From an uncultured Clostridia bacterium (lineage in GTDB: Bacteria; Bacillota; Clostridia; Christensenellales; UBA1242), in the NCBI GenBank assembly GCA_944384535.1, contig CALWTS010000031.1, positions 62,001-126,000 on the forward strand: a DNA stretch of 64,000 bases. The letters are read 5' to 3'. Numbering within the stretch: position 1 is the stretch's first letter; every line of letters starts with the position of its first letter. Of this stretch, positions 39,284 through 49,321 are shown one piece after another. A program made the translations under genes and the position numbers. Under the pieces are notes generated by a model. The model had not been told where the DNA came from. It saw only the letters and a program-made list of their open reading frames with translations, and did not search any database.

Positions 39284-39289
39284 CATGTA

Positions 39290-39555
39290 AAAGCGTTGAT
39301 CAAGAAAAGTAACATAAAAACTTTTTTACAGAGAAGTGAGATTGCTGAGAACTCACTAAAAAGATTATGTGAAAGAACACTTGGGAGCTGTCTTTTCGAA
39401 AAATGATTTTAGTAGGGAAGATCGGGTCGCCCGTTATAGCGGTTTTAAATAAAGTGGAGATTTATTCTCAAGTTAGGTGGCACCGCGAGTCATTCGTCCT
39501 AACACTAAGACAAATAGTCTAGTGCTTAAGGCGGATGACTTTTTGTTTTGTTTGC
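39290..39555 (+). promoter_or_regulatory. T-box riboswitch leader of aspS-gatCAB
   Basis: The conserved T-box AGGTGGCACCGCGAG is at 39475-39489, and GAACACTTGGGAGC at about 39375 is the conserved segment after stem I. Stem I appears short: base ACATAA/TTATGT, TTTTT/AAAAA and AGTGAG/CTCACT. A terminator GTCATTCGTCC ... GGCGGATGAC TTTTTG follows at about 39490-39547. T-boxes sense uncharged tRNA. Candidate specifier codons are AAC (39350-39352) or GAT (39363-39365); I cannot decide between Asn and Asp, though Asn makes biological sense with gatCAB. Confidence 0.93.
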
Positions 39556-41204: not shown

Positions 41205-42635
41205 ATGAATTTTGAAAACATGTCTCTTATAGAACTTGCTTCTCTTATTCAAGAACAAAAAGTAAGCTCTGTCGAGGTGACAAAGTATTTTATAGATAAA
41301 TGTGTTGAAAAACAAAACCTTAATGCAATCCTTGAAATTTTTGATGATGCAATATCTCAAGCTGAAGAAATGGACAAAAAAATTAAAAATGGATTTAAGG
41401 GAAAACTTGCTGGTGTACCTGTAATTATTAAAGATAATATCTTATATAAAGGGAAAAAAGCTTCATGTTCTTCAAAATTTCTAGAAAATTATGTGGCTCA
41501 ATATAATTCAACCGTAGTTGATCATATGCTTAAAGAAGGAGCTATTATTCTAGGTCGAGCAAATATGGATGAATTTGCAATGGGTTCATCAACTGAAAAC
41601 TCCGCTTTTGTAACTACTCTCAACGCCTTGGATCCTACTCGTGTTCCCGGTGGTTCAAGTGGTGGATCTGCCTGCGCTGTTGCTGCAGGTTTGTGTCCTG
41701 TTGCTCTTGGAACAGATACTGGAGGTTCTATTCGTCAACCTGCTTCCTACAATGGAGTTGTAGGAATTAAACCAACTTATGGTCGAGTTTCACGTTATGG
41801 AGTTGTCGCGTTTGCTAGTTCTCTTGAACAAGTTGGTCCTATAACCAAAAATGTTAAAGATAACGCTTACATGTTAAGTGTGCTAGCTGGCGGAAGCGAA
41901 AACGATGAAACTTCTCTTAAAATTGATGTTCCTGACTTTCTGTCTTACATTAAAGATAATATAAAAGGTATGAAAATTGCCGTTTTAAAAGAAGTTGAAG
42001 AAGTTGTAAAAGGTTTAGATGTTGAAAAAACTTATCACGATGTTATAAAATTTTTATCAAATAATGGTGCCGAAATAATCAATGCTTCAATTCCAGATTT
42101 TACTTTAACTCTTCCTTGTTATTACATTATTGCACCTGCTGAAGCAACAAGTAATCTTGGTCGTTTTGATGGAGTAAAATATTCTAGAAGAAGTCAATCT
42201 GCAACAAACATTGATGACATTTACCTAAAAAGCAGAAGTGAAGGTTTTGGAAAAGAAGTTAAAAGAAGAATTATGCTGGGAAACTTTGTTTTGAGTTCAG
42301 GATATTTTGATGCTTATTACAATAAAGCTAAAAAATTACAACAAAAACTAAAACTCGAAGCAAGCAAAGTCTTTTCAGTTTGTGATGCTATTATTCTTCC
42401 TACAACAACTGGAGAAGCTTTTAAGATTGGAGAAAAAGTAAACGACCCTATTTCTATGTACAAGGAAGACTTGTTTACAATCTTGGCTAATGTATTAGGT
42501 GTTCCTTCTATTTCAATCCCTTGTGGAAAAGGTAAAAATAATCTTCCTTTTGGTATTCAAATAATCGCAAACAATTTAAATGAAGGAATTATTTATGATA
42601 TTGCTAACTTTATAGAAAAGGAATATAGGGGGTAA
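41205..42635 (+). CDS. gatA: Asp/Glu-tRNA amidotransferase subunit A
   Basis: 476 residues, amidase-signature enzyme that releases ammonia from glutamine. The Ser-cisSer-Lys site is visible: Lys in VIIKDNIL (about 76), the GGSSGGSA loop (about 148-155), and TGGSIRQPASYNG (about 170-182). Start supported by GGGAGGTG. It lies 11 bp after gatC. Confidence 0.96.
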   Translation: MNFENMSLIELASLIQEQKVSSVEVTKYFIDKCVEKQNLNAILEIFDDAISQAEEMDKKIKNGFKGKLAGVPVIIKDNILYKGKKASCSSKFLENYVAQYNSTVVDHMLKEGAIILGRANMDEFAMGSSTENSAFVTTLNALDPTRVPGGSSGGSACAVAAGLCPVALGTDTGGSIRQPASYNGVVGIKPTYGRVSRYGVVAFASSLEQVGPITKNVKDNAYMLSVLAGGSENDETSLKIDVPDFLSYIKDNIKGMKIAVLKEVEEVVKGLDVEKTYHDVIKFLSNNGAEIINASIPDFTLTLPCYYIIAPAEATSNLGRFDGVKYSRRSQSATNIDDIYLKSRSEGFGKEVKRRIMLGNFVLSSGYFDAYYNKAKKLQQKLKLEASKVFSVCDAIILPTTTGEAFKIGEKVNDPISMYKEDLFTILANVLGVPSISIPCGKGKNNLPFGIQIIANNLNEGIIYDIANFIEKEYRG

Positions 42636-42637
42636 TT

Positions 42638-44050
42638 ATGCAAGAATATGATATAGTTATTGGACTTGAAGTTCATGCAGAATTAAAAACTGATAGTAAA
42701 GTCTTTTGTACTTGTAAAAATCAATTTGGTTCATCTCCAAATACTAATTGTTGTCCTGTTTGTGTAGGCTTACCGGGTGCACTCCCCGTTTTAAATAAAA
42801 AAGCTGTTGAACTTGTTATTAAGGCAGGACTAACAATGGATTGCGAAATTAATAATTTAGCTGTTTTTGAAAGAAAAAATTATTTTTATCCTGACCTTGC
42901 AAAAGCTTATCAAATTAGTCAACTTGTGAGACCTATATGTATCGGTGGACATATAAATTTAAAGAATAAATCGGTACGATTAAATAGAATACACCTCGAA
43001 GAGGATGCCGGTAAACTTATACACTCTACACAGGCAATAGGAACACTTATTGATTATAATCGTGGTGGTGTTCCTTTAATGGAGTTAGTTACCGAACCGG
43101 ATATCTCAAGTGCAGATGAGGCTGTTGAATTTTTAACAAAACTCCGTGCTAGGTTGATTTTTGCTGATGTTGCAGAATGTAAAATGGAACAAGGTGGAAT
43201 GAGATGTGATGTTAATATTTCTGTTAAACCAAAAGGCAGTAAAATTTTTGGTCAACGAACTGAAATGAAAAATCTTAACTCTTTTAAAAGTGTTTATAGA
43301 GCAATTAAATATGAAGCTAACAGACAAATTGAAATATTGTCTAATGGTGGAAAAATTACTCAAGAAACAAGGAAATGGGATGATAACCACGAAAAAAGTA
43401 TTTCTATGAGAAAAAAAGAAACTTCACAAGATTATAGGTACTTCCCTGACCCTGATTTGCTCGCTGTGGAAATTAGCAAAGAAGAAGTTGATAAAATCAA
43501 AAAGACACTTCCACTTATGCCAGAAGAACTTAAACAAAAATATATTAAAGATTATTCCCTTACAGAATATGATGCAGATGTTATTACTAAAGATAAAGAG
43601 ATTATAAATTATTTTGAAGAAACCATAAAATTCTATAATAATCCAAAAATTGTTGCGAACTGGCTTTTAACAGATATCTTAAGTAAAATAAAAGATGAGG
43701 AAAATGCTGAAATAAAAATCACTCCAAAAAATCTTGCAAAAATATTAACTTTACTCGAAGAAGGAAAAATTTCTAGAACAGTTGCAAAAGATATTTTCGC
43801 AAAAGTATGGGAAGAAAATGCTGATATTGATGAACTCGCAAAACAGTTAGGTGGAAATGTAGATGAAAATAGTTTAAAAGATATTATTTCTTCTATTGTA
43901 AAAAACAACCCAAAAGCAGTTGAAGATTATAAAACAAGTGACACTCCAGACAAAGTATTTAGGTGGTTTGTTGGACAGGTTATGAAAGAAACGAAAGGAA
44001 AAGCCAACGCTATTATAGCGGAAAAAATAATAAAAGAATTTCTAAATTAA
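42638..44050 (+). CDS. gatB: Asp/Glu-tRNA amidotransferase subunit B
   Basis: 470 residues. Starts with IGLEVHAELKTDSKVFC, then the Zn-binding cysteines CxC...CCPVC and the kinase-like active site (GGMRCDVNISV, QDYRYFPDPDL). A C-terminal tail domain (YqeY-like) binds tRNA. GatB activates the tRNA-bound Asp or Glu and receives ammonia from GatA. Last gene of the T-box operon; ends at a strong terminator. Confidence 0.96.
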   Translation: MQEYDIVIGLEVHAELKTDSKVFCTCKNQFGSSPNTNCCPVCVGLPGALPVLNKKAVELVIKAGLTMDCEINNLAVFERKNYFYPDLAKAYQISQLVRPICIGGHINLKNKSVRLNRIHLEEDAGKLIHSTQAIGTLIDYNRGGVPLMELVTEPDISSADEAVEFLTKLRARLIFADVAECKMEQGGMRCDVNISVKPKGSKIFGQRTEMKNLNSFKSVYRAIKYEANRQIEILSNGGKITQETRKWDDNHEKSISMRKKETSQDYRYFPDPDLLAVEISKEEVDKIKKTLPLMPEELKQKYIKDYSLTEYDADVITKDKEIINYFEETIKFYNNPKIVANWLLTDILSKIKDEENAEIKITPKNLAKILTLLEEGKISRTVAKDIFAKVWEENADIDELAKQLGGNVDENSLKDIISSIVKNNPKAVEDYKTSDTPDKVFRWFVGQVMKETKGKANAIIAEKIIKEFLN

Positions 44051-45147: not shown

Positions 45148-45178
45148 TAAAATAAAAAAACAGACTTATTTGTCTGAT
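45148..45178 (-). terminator. Terminator of the 117-residue membrane protein gene
   Basis: Stem CAGAC/GTCTG overlapping the stop codon, followed leftward by TTTTTTTATTTT. Confidence 0.7.
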
Positions 45179-45519
45179 TTTTTATTTTTATTGTTTAAAA
45201 CTACTTTATTATCATCGATAAGTTTACCTTCTTTATAAATTTCTACCCTTAACTTATTTCCATATGAATTAGTTTGACATCTTATGTTATATTCTTTTTC
45301 ATCAATCTTTATATCATAAACTTCACCATTTATTAATTGAGGCATAGATGCCGTTAAAATATTTTTATTATCTAACAAAATTTTTAACTTGCTTCCCCTA
45401 TTATAAATTGTCAAATCTTTTTCATCAATTTTAAAAGTGTATTTCTTTATAGTTATTAAATATGTTACTAAAATAAATAAAACAAACAATGAAACTATAA
45501 CTATACAAGCTATTAACAT
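45166..45519 (-). CDS. Single-pass membrane protein, unrecognised
   Basis: 117 residues: an N-terminal membrane segment (about 3-26, ACIVIVSLFVLFILVTYLI), then about 85 residues forming probable beta strands (YTFKIDEKDLTIYNRGSKLK) that resemble a small all-beta domain, and a Lys-rich tail. No known family recognised. It is followed by a terminator and lies 35 bp after the SecB-like gene; the two may be co-transcribed. Confidence 0.6.
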   Translation of the reverse strand: MLIACIVIVSLFVLFILVTYLITIKKYTFKIDEKDLTIYNRGSKLKILLDNKNILTASMPQLINGEVYDIKIDEKEYNIRCQTNSYGNKLRVEIYKEGKLIDDNKVVLNNKNKKSDK

Positions 45520-45553: not shown

Positions 45554-45949
45554 TTATTGTGGAAACTGCACAACAGGAGCAGTAATCATTGGCCCTATTT
45601 GAGAATGAAGGGTTAATCCAGATAAAATACAAGAAATATTACTAGCCAATAACCTTGCAACAGGACTTGTTTTAAAATATTCCTCACAATCATCAAGTTT
45701 ATCATACTCTGCCGTATTAATTAAAACCTCAACACTCAATGCAACTTCTATTGAAAAAATACATTCTGGTTCAGGTTTTACAAATCTTCTTAGGATAACC
45801 TTAACTGCATCAGATCTTAATCTTTCAACTTTTATTTCATCCCAAACTCTCATATTAACTGTTGCACTTGGTTGAGGTTCTCCTAATCTTTTATAATCAA
45901 TTTCCTCAATTATAGGTTTAAAATTCATGTTTCTTATTACATTTGCCAT
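45554..45949 (-). CDS. Small soluble protein, weakly SecB-like
   Basis: 131 residues without signal or membrane segment. Alternating strands (ATVNMRVWDEIKVERL, AVKVILRRFVKPEPECIFSIEVALSVEV) followed by a long helix (SPVARLLASNISCILSGLTLHSQIG) and a Pro-terminated end (TAPVVQFPQ). The strand-strand-strand-helix order with a proline-rich end recalls SecB-type chaperones, but the similarity is weak and not based on a motif. Function unknown. Confidence 0.5.
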   Translation of the reverse strand: MANVIRNMNFKPIIEEIDYKRLGEPQPSATVNMRVWDEIKVERLRSDAVKVILRRFVKPEPECIFSIEVALSVEVLINTAEYDKLDDCEEYFKTSPVARLLASNISCILSGLTLHSQIGPMITAPVVQFPQ

Positions 45950-46042: not shown

Positions 46043-46459
46043 TTAATCTTCTCGCAGGATTTTCTTTAATTTCTCATCTTGAAGCTGACTATTTAAATTA
46101 TCCTTTAAAAGATCTAGCTTTATTTTTTCAACGATTATTGAAATCAATTCACTGTTGGATGGCTTATAATCATTTTTGTAAATTATTGTATTATAAACAT
46201 TGTTAAGTCCTAAAAGGCCCTTACTTTTGTACGACTGATTTATAGCATTCCTTATACACCTTTCAATTATAGATGATTTAACAGAAAAATATTTTCCTAC
46301 CATTGGATATAATTTTGTTGTAATATTATTTATTAAATCTTCATCTAAAACACACAATTCAATAGATTTTCTTAAATAGTCAAAACCAAGCATTTCAGGT
46401 TGTATCTTTAACTCTAATAGAATATTGGTAGCCTGCTCATATATTTTTTCTTCATCCAT
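46043..46459 (-). CDS. Stand-alone Spo0A C-terminal DNA-binding domain protein
   Basis: 138 residues from the ATG at 46457-46459 (TAGGAG site). Residues 5-110 align along their length with the effector domain of Spo0A: ILLELKIQPEMLGFDYLRKSI, then ITTKLYPMVGKYF and the recognition helix SIIERCIRNAINQSY, and KPSNSELISIIVEKI (TNSEFIA in Spo0A). The phospho-receiver domain is absent. Spo0A is the master regulator of sporulation and binds 0A boxes; this protein could compete for or share its sites. It is not preceded by any receiver domain gene here. Role inferred. Confidence 0.82.
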   Translation of the reverse strand: MDEEKIYEQATNILLELKIQPEMLGFDYLRKSIELCVLDEDLINNITTKLYPMVGKYFSVKSSIIERCIRNAINQSYKSKGLLGLNNVYNTIIYKNDYKPSNSELISIIVEKIKLDLLKDNLNSQLQDEKLKKILRED

Positions 46460-46552
46460 AGTAATTCTCCTACTGAGTAATATACCATACAATATTAATT
46501 TTGTAAAATATTTTAATATTTTTTACAAAATAATTTATAAATATTTTGTAAA

Positions 46553-47031
46553 TTATGCGTACTTTAATTTATTACGTATCTTTATAAATTTATAAAAGTA
46601 AGCATTTATAAGTTTTAATTTATTTGCCTTTAGATGAGCAGTAAAATTTTCTGTCTGCATATGAAACCCTGCTGTAACTGGAATATTATACTCATTAGCA
46701 ATTTTTGTTGCAAACATACCTAACATTAATGGAAGCATAACATGTACAACATCTGATCCCTGTATTGTCGTTCTAACAATATTTTCATCTGGTTTAGCAA
46801 GTGTAACACCAACTTTTTTAACATATTTATCTATGATTTTAGGAAAATTATAATTTGGTACTACGAAAAAACCTTGTTCTCCTTTTTTATTTTGATCAGC
46901 ACAAAGAACTCTAACTATATGTCCTTGTGATTTTAAAAATCTAATAAGATTCATTTAAGATTCATTGCAGCAATAGTCGTACCATTATTTTCTTCTCCCA
47001 AAACATCACAAACGATTGTAATTTTCGTCAT
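46553..47031 (-). pseudogene. Broken glycosyltransferase (GT4-type), frameshifted and truncated
   Basis: An ATG at 47029-47031 begins MTKITIVCDVLGEENNGTTI, the usual N-terminus of a GT4 glycosyltransferase. After AAMNLK it stops; the frame continues from 46954 as MNLIRFLKSQGHIVRVLCAD. The break is an 11-bp tandem duplication (ATGAATCTTAA/ATGAATCTTAT); deleting one copy restores AAMNLIRFLK. The reading also ends early at 46553 after about 155 residues, so roughly 200 C-terminal residues (the nucleotide-sugar domain) are missing. Related enzymes glycosylate membrane lipids. The remnant is unlikely to work. Confidence 0.85.
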
Positions 47032-47236: not shown

Positions 47237-47968
47237 TTAATTTTTAAAATCATTAGATTCAAAATTCTCAACATTTTCTTCATCTTTGATTTTGCTGTCT
47301 TTTTCTTCATTATAATTTTCTTTAAAATTATCTTCTTCTTTTATTTGAATTTCTAATTCGTTTCCTTTTTTCTTTTTTGACTTTTTTGATTTTCTATCAA
47401 TGTGAAAAATACTCATAAATTTCCCAACAAATAATATTATTGGCTCACTATGAATCATAGAATACCTTTTCATTAAAGCTTTTCCAGAAATAATCAAAGC
47501 CGCAATAATAGCAGACACCAATGATGCAATAACTATTGTTAAAAATGTTGACATACTGTCTTTAATAAATGCAGCTGTTACAGTCGCTCCTGCAGCACCA
47601 CTTAAGATACCACATATATCTCCTAATATGTCAGCAAATATGCTTGCAACTCTATCTGCATGTTTTTTTAAAGATATTGCCTCTTTAGCTCCCCTTACTT
47701 TTCTTGATGCCATTGCTCTAAAATATTTGATATCAGCTGCAGTAACCGCTACACCTATCATATCTGTAATTATCGAAATAATAAGAAAAACTAAAATAAC
47801 GACTATTGATATTATAACACTTGCATTACTTAATGCAATTTCACTCAAAATACCAAACGCCATTGATAAAACAAATGATATTATTAACACAATTAACGGC
47901 CATTTATACCATAATGCAAACTTTGATTGTTGTTTTGTTGTTTTTTTCTTCTTGGAATGTTCTTCCAT
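47237..47968 (-). CDS. Membrane protein related to CorB/DUF21-type N-terminal domains
   Basis: 243 residues: basic cytoplasmic start, four membrane segments (WPLIVLIISFVLSMAFGIL, VIISIVVILVFLIISIITDMIG, a helical loop with SRKVRGAKEAISLKKHADRVASIFADILGD, and FLTIVIASLVSAIIAALII), and a long Lys/Glu tail. The central loop resembles CNNM/CorB-type (DUF21) membrane domains; the CBS and CorC domains are absent. A role in ion transport is not shown. Confidence 0.55.
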   Translation of the reverse strand: MEEHSKKKKTTKQQSKFALWYKWPLIVLIISFVLSMAFGILSEIALSNASVIISIVVILVFLIISIITDMIGVAVTAADIKYFRAMASRKVRGAKEAISLKKHADRVASIFADILGDICGILSGAAGATVTAAFIKDSMSTFLTIVIASLVSAIIAALIISGKALMKRYSMIHSEPIILFVGKFMSIFHIDRKSKKSKKKKGNELEIQIKEEDNFKENYNEEKDSKIKDEENVENFESNDFKN

Positions 47969-48002: not shown

Positions 48003-48033
48003 TTAAAAAATATAGAGCCTTGATAGGCTCTAT
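48003..48033 (-). terminator. Terminator of the large ncRNA
   Basis: Perfect stem ATAGAGCC/GGCTCTAT with loop TATCAA (leftward), followed by ATATTTTTTAAAA. Confidence 0.85.
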
Positions 48034-48585
48034 TTGAAGGTAATAACGCAAGTAAACCTTGTGCCATAGGTTCGGTCGGATTTCCCATTCTCGCACTCAA
48101 CGTCACCGTTTAAGCAGTTTCCTTTTAAGCAAGACATAACACCGAATCGCCACTTAGGACACACTATAATCCTCACGTTATCTACAGAACGTAACAGTCT
48201 AGAAGTTTTCCTTAACATCTTAAAATATTATTCTCCTGTTTTGCAAATACTGTTTCATAAGCAGGTACATTTTTTATTGGCCGATAAAATTTGCACGTTT
48301 AAACTTAATCCCCAAGCATTCACTCAAGGCAGGCTACACTGCACACGACTTTTACCGCAATACAGGTTCTTCTCAGTGAGTAATCGCTCACCCTTTCTGA
48401 GTCTCCACGATAATTGGGACGGATACTATATGCCGTTATAGTGCGCCCAAAAATCTTAACTTCCAGCACCAGCCCCAGTTTGGGCAACCAAAGCAAGCAC
48501 CAGAAACTTCACAGATATGCCAACCGATGCCATTAAATTCATCTTCCTAATATTTTAAAAATGACTAGAATACTGCACCTTCACA
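48004..48585 (-). ncRNA. Large structured non-coding RNA (about 582 nt)
   Basis: A strong extended -10 promoter (48592-48620) and an intrinsic terminator (48003-48033) define a transcript of about 582 nt with no supported ORF. The ends pair: 5' GAAGGT (48577-48582) with 3' ACCTTC (48036-48041). Further stems: AACCT/AGGTT at 48056-48072, AGGA/TCCT at about 48156-48173, TTTTAT/ATAAAA at about 48272-48289, nested CTCAG/CTGAG and GTGAG/CTCAC at about 48371-48401, ACTATA/TATAGT at about 48425-48442, and CCC/GGG at 48474-48485. The size is close to ROOL and OLE classes. It does not fit RNase P RNA, tmRNA or SRP RNA. Confidence 0.7.
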
Positions 48586-48591
48586 CTTATA

Positions 48592-48620
48592 ATTATAGCA
48601 TACTTTTGTAAAAAATGCAA
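48592..48620 (-). promoter_or_regulatory. Promoter of the large ncRNA
   Basis: -35 TTGCAT (48615-48620), 17-nt spacer, -10 TATAAT (48592-48597) preceded by TGC (extended -10). Confidence 0.8.
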
Positions 48621-48646: not shown

Positions 48647-49321
48647 TCATTGTCTAACATTGTGAAGAATATCGTATTCATAATCAAAACCTAATATATC
48701 TTCAGCAAACAAATGATTATATTTTGCACAATATGCATCTTCCTCATTTGTATATTGATTAAATTTTTTGCACAACCCAAAACAGTTTGTTCTTGTCATA
48801 GCACTTATCACATCATTATCAAAATAATTACCTAGATGCTTCAATGTATAAAATTGTTTTTGACTTAGGCCAACAATTGTTCTTTCTGTCTTACATTCTT
48901 CATATTGATAATTCCACTGCTCAATAATTTGCTCAATATTTTCTACATCCACAATCTTACCGAAACAATCATATCCAGGATAAAATTCCAACCCAGACAT
49001 AAAAGAAAAATACCTAACTGAATTCGTTAAATCAATACTATTCAACTTTAACCATAATGCCGTAATTATATGCTTATGACCAATAACTTTATAAATTTTT
49101 CCATCATTTGTAATAATCCCCTTATCTGGAAGATTAGTCATTTTAAGATCTACGTTTAAAATATTTTTTGGCAAAACTTTAACATTTATTGAAGAAAAAT
49201 AATCTAAAGGATACTCCTTAAAATACTTATTATAAATTTCTATAGCTTCTTTGTTATTTTTATTTATTTCATCTATTAATGAAGTTTTTCCTTCTAAAAT
49301 ATCTTTAATTAACTGACTCAT
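48647..49321 (-). CDS. Cytoplasmic protein of unknown function
   Basis: 224 residues, soluble, mixed helix/strand. The middle contains GHKHIITALWLKLNSIDLTNSVRYFSF and a Tyr/Cys-rich C-terminus (CFGLCKKFNQYTNEEDAYCAKYNHLF). I do not recognise it. A GAGGT ribosome binding site precedes the start. It is transcribed toward the large ncRNA's promoter and has no neighbour suggesting a role. Confidence 0.5.
   Translation of the reverse strand: MSQLIKDILEGKTSLIDEINKNNKEAIEIYNKYFKEYPLDYFSSINVKVLPKNILNVDLKMTNLPDKGIITNDGKIYKVIGHKHIITALWLKLNSIDLTNSVRYFSFMSGLEFYPGYDCFGKIVDVENIEQIIEQWNYQYEECKTERTIVGLSQKQFYTLKHLGNYFDNDVISAMTRTNCFGLCKKFNQYTNEEDAYCAKYNHLFAEDILGFDYEYDILHNVRQ

Follow-up and report, generated by a model that had tools for sequence, protein, structure and literature searches.

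The OLE RNA gene and its signals

The window, that is, the whole stretch of 64,000 nucleotides analyzed here, belongs to a 1.24-Mb draft genome in 50 contigs (G000). The host appears to be an uncultured gut lineage of Clostridia and not an extremophile; a relative, Candidatus Caccopulliclostridium, is placed in the GTDB family UBA1242, order 4C28d-15, according to PMC8035907. On the minus strand of the window, the gene of a large RNA is followed by the gene of a putative partner protein. The features of this cassette are, in window coordinates:

47237..47968, minus strand: oapA1, OLE-linked OapA of 243 aa with DILGD and the loop residues M86/K90/K95 (motif, homology and predicted fold)
48004..48585, minus strand: OLE RNA (RF01071), inferred start to terminator end (Rfam match; fold z -2.44)
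48012..48033, minus strand: intrinsic terminator stem-loop, then a U run to about 48004 (terminator scan)
48036..48041, minus strand: closing end stem, 3' strand ACCUUC (MFE fold)
48279..48282, minus strand: GGCC palindrome in the loop of the long stem (read from the Rfam alignment and the sequence)
48577..48582, minus strand: closing end stem, 5' strand GAAGGU (MFE fold)
48592..48600, minus strand: extended -10 promoter element TGCTATAAT of the OLE gene (motif at the 5' end of the OLE match)

The Rfam model of OLE (RF01071) matches positions 48021-48597(-) over its entire length (model positions 1-616 of 616) with 359.4 bits and an E-value of 5.4e-102; the gathering score of this family is 50 bits. 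No other Rfam class, ROOL and GOLLD included, is above threshold in the stretch 48004-48585. The RNA at 48004-48585(-) is a new member of the known class OLE. The initial annotation had described about 582 nt as a structured, non-coding RNA, gave no strand, considered the length close to ROOL and OLE and left the choice between a known and a new class to an Rfam search. This search returns a known class, OLE, on the minus strand, and the full-length match and the stable fold bear out the structured RNA. The oapA gene downstream is absent from that account. ORFs of 40-66 aa overlap the stretch, but the conserved signal is RNA structure and a coding reading was rejected.

The promoter and the terminator that had been proposed to enclose the RNA are both present. 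The extended -10 element TGCTATAAT is located at 48600-48592(-) and transcription probably starts near 48585, which is the end coordinate given by the initial annotation; the first 12 bases of the Rfam match fall inside the promoter. The motif TGNTATAAT occurs 24 times in the window versus 9.4 times expected from shuffles, and the copy within TGCTATAAT is placed where the start of OLE is expected. A stricter two-hexamer promoter scan does not list this site, the -35 region of which is weak, and the scan yields no excess in the region (3 sites versus 3.2 expected). The terminator consists of a 9-bp stem (48033-48012(-)) followed by ATTTTTT; terminator-like sites number 2 versus 0.5 expected. 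The GC content of the OLE stretch is indeed unusual for this genome (40.2% versus 27.3% for the window). About 0.03% of the 582-nt stretches of the window are equally GC-rich, and the maximum begins at 48005.

The predicted fold (MFE -164.6 kcal/mol, z -2.44) is matched in stability by one of 100 shuffles. It contains the stems and the pairing of the 5' and 3' ends noted previously, with GAAGGU paired to ACCUUC. The middle stems, presumably P7-P9, are shortened, with deletions at model positions of about 213-227 and 479-498. The ~18 nt missing at model positions 479-498 are what we take to be the OapB-binding hairpin.

Covariation analysis covered the 3' core, for which 30 OLE RNAs of the family were aligned. 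RNAalifold gives 42 pairs, 28 of which show two-sided changes that keep the pair, and 95.2% of the cells are paired. The covariation score is 0.511 compared to a shuffled mean of 0.188 (0 of 500 as high), a test that is inflated by the kinship of the sequences, with a margin that is nonetheless large. The best slid pairing scores 0.154; as the structure is taken from the same alignment, it is favored over slid versions. The long stem carries the GGCC palindrome in its loop, and in published OLE structures the dimer makes its kissing contact through a loop of this type (PMC12286853).

OapA1 and a second OapA in the same genome

The gene directly downstream of OLE is oapA1. By sequence, OapA1 reaches 19.6 bits with the Pfam CNNM model, which is below the cut-off of 28.4, and OapA2, a second copy described below, has no Pfam match. 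The DxxxD motif reads DILGD in OapA1 and DVIGD in OapA2. This motif sets OapA apart from CNNM proteins, and OapA is without the proline that is conserved in CNNM domains, as described in PMC11332333. The AlphaFold models have a pLDDT of 82.3 (OapA1) and 90.4 (OapA2). For both, the first PDB match of Foldseek is the CNNM protein MtCorB (7m1t for OapA1), with E-values of 1.4e-3 and 1.3e-2, respectively, and a probability of 1.00 each. The models support, rather than prove, a CNNM-like fold without CBS or CorC domains for both proteins, since the E-values are modest and none is below 0.001. OapA1 is 61-66% identical to the OapAs of G131, G059, G092 and G008, all from genomes with OLE, and at most 56% identical to the other OapAs listed.

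An L7Ae-type protein (PF01248) has no match in the genome of the window and is present in 7 of 147 family genomes. OapC is, we assume, this L7Ae-type protein. It is reported to be dispensable in some clades (PMC11332333).

Upstream of OLE, a 224-aa protein is encoded at 48647-49321(-), which has no Pfam or NCBIfam match and is found in 2 of 21 genus genomes, its own included. The 133-aa ORF at 46553-46954(-) matches only the N-terminal region of glycosyltransferase family 4 and is possibly a gene fragment. A 149-aa ORF with the C-terminal domain of Spo0A only (46043-46492(-)) and two small ORFs without family match (45554-45949(-) and 45166-45519(-)) recur by the cassette in G161 and G163; sporulation-related genes are reported near ole (PMC11332333). 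Elsewhere in the window, a T-box leader (39287-39504(+), 144.2 bits) lies ~1.7 kb ahead of an Amidase/GatB gene pair (41205-44050). In two genomes of the genus, OapA is fused at its C-terminus to PF01663, a Type I phosphodiesterase/nucleotide pyrophosphatase (L337:4178-5971(+), 74.9 bits; L338:2837-4690(-), 67.1 bits). The fused OapAs have OLE upstream, in L337 with a 335-aa ORF between, and the fusion is a possible clue to the chemistry of the OLE complex.

A search with OapA1 located OapA2 on another contig of its own genome (G000:C5:84812-85330). It is 33% identical to OapA1 and is flanked by xseA, proS and xseB on one side and by infC on the other (neighbor gene names were checked on one member per cluster). 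No OLE was found when this locus was scanned. According to PMC11332333, OLE and OapA are almost completely mutually inclusive and might never occur apart.

All 40 genomes of the genus sample carry OapA and 12 of them carry OLE. In each of the 12 OLE genomes, two separate sites match OapA (for G161, one of these is a fragment located at a contig end, and G153 has a third, short fragment), whereas all 28 OLE-free genomes have a single match of OapA size. In 8 of these 28 genomes versus none of the 12 (Fisher p 0.079), a second, weak match is located in a frame of at least 456 aa and is MpfA-like.

Orphan OapAs, the reduced OLE and the history of the cassette

Within the family, OLE is present in 46 of 147 genomes. 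OapA without an OLE match from either of two models, termed orphan here, is found in 35 of the 147; an orphan genome has a best E-value of at most 1e-10 for OapA, a frame shorter than 300 aa and no OLE. In a sensitive Rfam re-search of the 35 orphan genomes, none was over the cut-off (best 14.3 bits). A model of the 3' core of the family's own OLE, R1, gave at most 20.0 bits in these genomes, compared to 120-180 bits in four included positives. Four orphan genomes (G034, G080, G100 and G118) are 98-100% complete in 8-10 contigs.

R1 detects OLE beside OapA in 71 of 80 loci of the genome collection, including distant ones of Agathobaculum and Bacilli. Seventy of these score at least 89.8 bits; L164, where the contig cuts OLE, scores 36.0 bits. 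Among the nine loci without a match, L110, L111 and L133 start close to a contig end. The other six (L148, L152, L168, L171, L178 and L179) are orphan-type loci: L178 clusters with this genus's orphans, and five of the six are taken as the loci of G077, G115, G055, G009 and G104. The set of 37 orphan rows comprises 34 of the 35 orphan genomes (G137, with a fragmented OapA, was left out) and the OapA2 of G000, G059 and G131. Two rows were removed from the OapA set, L018 because it is cut and L003 because it repeats the gene of L072; 22 of the 80 contig loci entered the OapA tree and 54 the loop count.

Flanking genes could be read for 29 OLE loci. Immediately upstream, 22 of these carry xseA/xseB or proS, and argR follows downstream in 20. 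At 34 of the 37 orphan loci, xseA, xseB or proS lies upstream of oapA in the same direction with no OLE between; argR, or infC in the genus of the window, mostly follows downstream. At 25 of the 34 measurable orphan loci, the upstream gene and oapA are separated by 32-98 nt, and at another 8 by 101-294 nt. The gap in L073 (G009) measures 1251 nt and holds ORFs of 160 and 85 aa; a hidden OLE was sought there, but Rfam returned nothing up to E 10 and an unfiltered R1 scan did not exceed 5.7 bits. The direct R1 scan of the 37 orphan loci reached at most 13.6 bits.

The orphan label must change 6 times on the OapA tree (97 rows, built by a quick method), and well-supported branches force at least 3 of these changes; the root and the long branches leave the number of OLE losses uncertain. 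In the g27 clade (100*), G026 with OLE stands beside G055, G077 and G115 without it. The median dN/dS is 0.138 for orphans (20 pairs) and 0.147 for OLE-linked genes (41 pairs), calculated from pairs more than 60% identical with dS of 0.1-2.5, many of them near saturation. These values indicate that the orphan oapA genes are under purifying selection like the OLE-linked ones. OLE was probably lost in place at the orphan loci, probably in several independent losses. The C-terminal tail was considered as a marker of OLE and rejected: its median length past the core is 23 residues in OLE-linked OapAs versus 4, but several OLE-linked OapAs are short.

OLE-linked OapAs carry M86, K90 and K95 (window numbering), which most orphans lack. 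Counted as M at 86, K, R or H at 90 and K or R at 95, the full signature is present in 69 of 69 nearby OLE-linked rows, in both OapAs of the genomes with a reduced OLE, in 17 of 21 distant OLE-linked OapAs and in 3 of 37 orphans, figures that are optimistic as statistics because the positions were chosen from the alignment used for counting. Part of the signature is lost in the remaining 34 orphans and 4 distant OapAs. The 69 nearby rows represent 67 distinct proteins (two repeats) and include L110 and L111, which are taken as OLE-linked, as the contig end cuts the upstream region. Two of the three orphans with the full signature belong to g27, where the loss of OLE looks recent, and one to g30. 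W23, D69, D113, G116, D117, K163 and K167 are conserved in OLE-linked and orphan OapAs alike, and the orphans retain their ion-site residues; D113, G116 and D117 are identical wherever the residue is present in 127 OLE-linked, distant and orphan rows. Since M86, K90 and K95 are kept with OLE and lost in most orphans, this loop is the likely meeting place of OapA and OLE. A conserved basic cluster on the cytoplasmic face of OapA has been speculated to bind OLE (PMC12265935), and we think that this cluster is the M86/K90/K95 loop.

Two genomes of g4, G003 and G044, have OLE RNAs of 244 and 245 nt (L102:1539-1782 and L104:1985-2229), in which the central ~340 nt are missing. A TATA box is followed by the 5' segment GGUGCAGUAUCCUAG, a short hairpin and the whole 3' core, and an end stem of 12-13 bp closes the RNA. 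Rfam gives 95.9 and 106.9 bits and R1 119.9 and 121.2 bits. The 5' motif and the core are 74 nt apart in both, compared to 397-456 nt in the remaining 65 of the 67 distinct OLEs that have both motifs (three further cores are without the 5' motif). The missing part looks like the P3-P9 stretch, with the ends that form domain 2 remaining; P3-P9 is described as domain 1 (PMC12265935). The OapAs of these genomes are not in line with OLE, being convergent in G003 and on another contig in G044. The published variants 1 and 2 are, as far as PMC11332333 describes them, less reduced, and an OLE of 244-245 nt was not found in the accessible text of the open-licence literature searched.

The trees place the two OapAs of the window's genome differently. 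OapA1 groups with the OapAs of g9 (G008), g12 (G092) and Candidatus Onthoplasma (support 90, quick tree), while the own OapA2 clusters with the other orphans of the genus (99*). The other g12 members and g32, the closest OLE carrier to g1 on the RpoB tree, fall elsewhere on the OapA tree. The RpoB tree holds 120 of the 147 genomes (17 have no match, and 10 of 130 matched ones were left out for a partial match or lower completeness), and g1, g9 and g12 form separate well-supported clades in it. Compared with RpoB, therefore, OapA2 looks vertical and the cassette looks horizontal. The ole-oapA1 cassette was probably gained, likely by horizontal transfer, or kept by only some species. G161 and G163 share the cassette neighborhood, which suggests that the cassette was probably also inherited after its arrival.

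A carrier of the cassette was sought in viral contigs, where neither OapA relatives nor the OLE core pattern were found, and among plasmids, which gave no match. Twelve viral contigs with the 15-base 5' motif have no OLE core and were taken as chance. An empty-site comparison yielded no comparable site, as the upstream neighbor is present in only 2 of 21 genus genomes. Likewise, no neighbors that would point to replacement of mpfA in place are shared, within a few kilobases, between mpfA (G047, G040) and the cassette (G008, G064).

MpfA (a CorC_HlyC protein) is encoded in 0 of 46 OLE genomes, 6 of 35 orphan genomes and 38 of 66 genomes with neither OLE nor OapA; the six orphan genomes thus carry both OapA and MpfA. 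In g9, OLE without MpfA occurs in G008, and the reverse, MpfA without OLE, in its relatives G047 and G070. The contrast of OLE with MpfA (0/46 versus 38/66) is not significant in phylogenetically independent pairs (n = 8, median p 0.25). An avoidance of MpfA by orphans is not claimed here: the raw counts point that way (Fisher p 1.2e-4), but the median p is 1 in the few independent pairs on the RpoB tree (n = 4).

A model of the cassette and comparison with known systems

The best overall explanation, to which we assign a probability of about 0.7, is an ole-oapA1 cassette in which the RNA is held at the membrane by OapA1, with OapA as the constant and OLE as the optional part and the loop as the likely contact. 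Seen directly are the identity of the RNA, its signals, the covariation of the 3' core in relatives and the adjoining OapA. OLE would be transcribed leftwards from its own promoter to its own terminator, with OapA1 encoded just downstream. By homology, the RNA would adopt the OLE shape and dimerize. OapA1, a CNNM-like four-helix protein, would hold it at the membrane, where OLE would adjust the handling of divalent metals (Mg2+/Mn2+) under stress. Membrane localization, dimerization and the stress role are taken from the published OLE of Halalkalibacterium halodurans and Clostridium. The published anticorrelation of OLE and MpfA (here 0/46) suggests that OLE most likely tunes a CNNM-like divalent-metal transporter, of which it would be a detachable cofactor.

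In this lineage OapA would be the constant and OLE the optional part, and the vertical OapA2 would persist without OLE. After loss of OLE, the loop facing the RNA would decay while the residues of the ion site stay conserved. Against this, H. halodurans shows similar defects whether ole or oapA is deleted singly (PMC10898510), so that OapA does not work in that species without the RNA. As both are needed there, an OapA that does without RNA would represent a derived state. It is about an even bet that the OLE machine of this family has been dismantled in three ways: OapA functions without OLE in whole genera, OLE is cut to its two ends (domain 2) in two species, having shed P3-P9, the domain for the membrane and the dimer, and the cassette moves between distant genera and rejoins an orphan OapA, as in the genome of the window.

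Orphan OapAs would not be alone, and the partnership would never have been broken, if their OLE were too divergent or reduced for either model. The OLE of 244-245 nt in the same family demonstrates that reduction can go far, three of the 37 orphan OapAs keep the full loop signature, L073 leaves 1251 nt between xseB and oapA, and a very odd OLE could escape the genome searches, which score candidates from a looser first look. However, both reduced OLEs are still detected by Rfam and R1, the orphan genomes, four of them nearly complete or complete, do not exceed 20.0 bits and the 37 loci 13.6 bits, and gaps of 32-98 nt (25/34) and 101-294 nt (8/34) offer too little space for a full OLE. The gap of L073 is occupied by two ORFs and shows neither an Rfam match up to E 10 nor more than 5.7 bits with R1. 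A hidden partner is thus unlikely. Similarly improbable is a hetero-oligomer of OapA1 and OapA2 that serves a single OLE complex, so that OapA2 would not be independent of the RNA. At least two copies of OapA are bound by OLE (PMC12265935), and all 12 OLE genomes of the genus sample have two OapA matches, but OapA2 is found just as well in the 28 genomes of the genus that have neither OLE nor OapA1, and its loop is without the full signature. That the stretch belongs to another large RNA class (ROOL, GOLLD) or to a new one would suit its size, its high GC content for the genome and its stable predicted fold; against the full-length OLE match of 359.4 bits (gathering score 50), with no other family over threshold, this is next to negligible.

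If the OLE machine has been dismantled in these three ways, OLE would be a removable and not an obligatory regulatory cofactor of a CNNM-type transporter, and domain 2 would have a function of its own. PMC11332333 still describes the function of OLE as open, almost 20 years after the RNA was first reported, and the published mutual inclusion leaves little genomic room to separate the contributions of OLE and OapA. This lineage offers natural counterparts: species that pair OLE with two OapAs, species whose single OapA is without OLE, species with apparently domain 2 only, and species with MpfA instead. They make it possible to test the metal transport of OapA alone, the RNA-contact residues of the M86/K90/K95 loop and the working of domain 2 without the domain that is modeled on the far side of the membrane.

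Compared to the full-length class, the OLE of the window matches the whole model, contains the conserved segments and has oapA directly downstream. It differs in its length of about 582 nt, its short middle stems, its own terminator before oapA and its unusual locus. The OLE of most family relatives lies beside argR, near Asp23/yqhY-type and nusB genes, and argR and yqhY are reported near ole (PMC10898510, PMC12265935). Variant 1, as described in PMC11332333, has shortened middle stems and is missing a hairpin near the OapB site, which would fit the OLE of the window; it is mostly reported there from TANB77, whereas the genome of the window is probably from UBA1242. Compared by description to the OapA of H. 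halodurans, OapA1 is likewise CNNM-like (predicted), has DxxxD and is encoded beside OLE; unlike there, the genome of the window has a second OapA without OLE. The CNNM transporters MpfA, CorC and CorB share the fold by model, with 7m1t/7m1u on top for OapA1 and OapA2 at modest E-values. OapA differs from them in being without the CorC_HlyC part and in carrying DxxxD.
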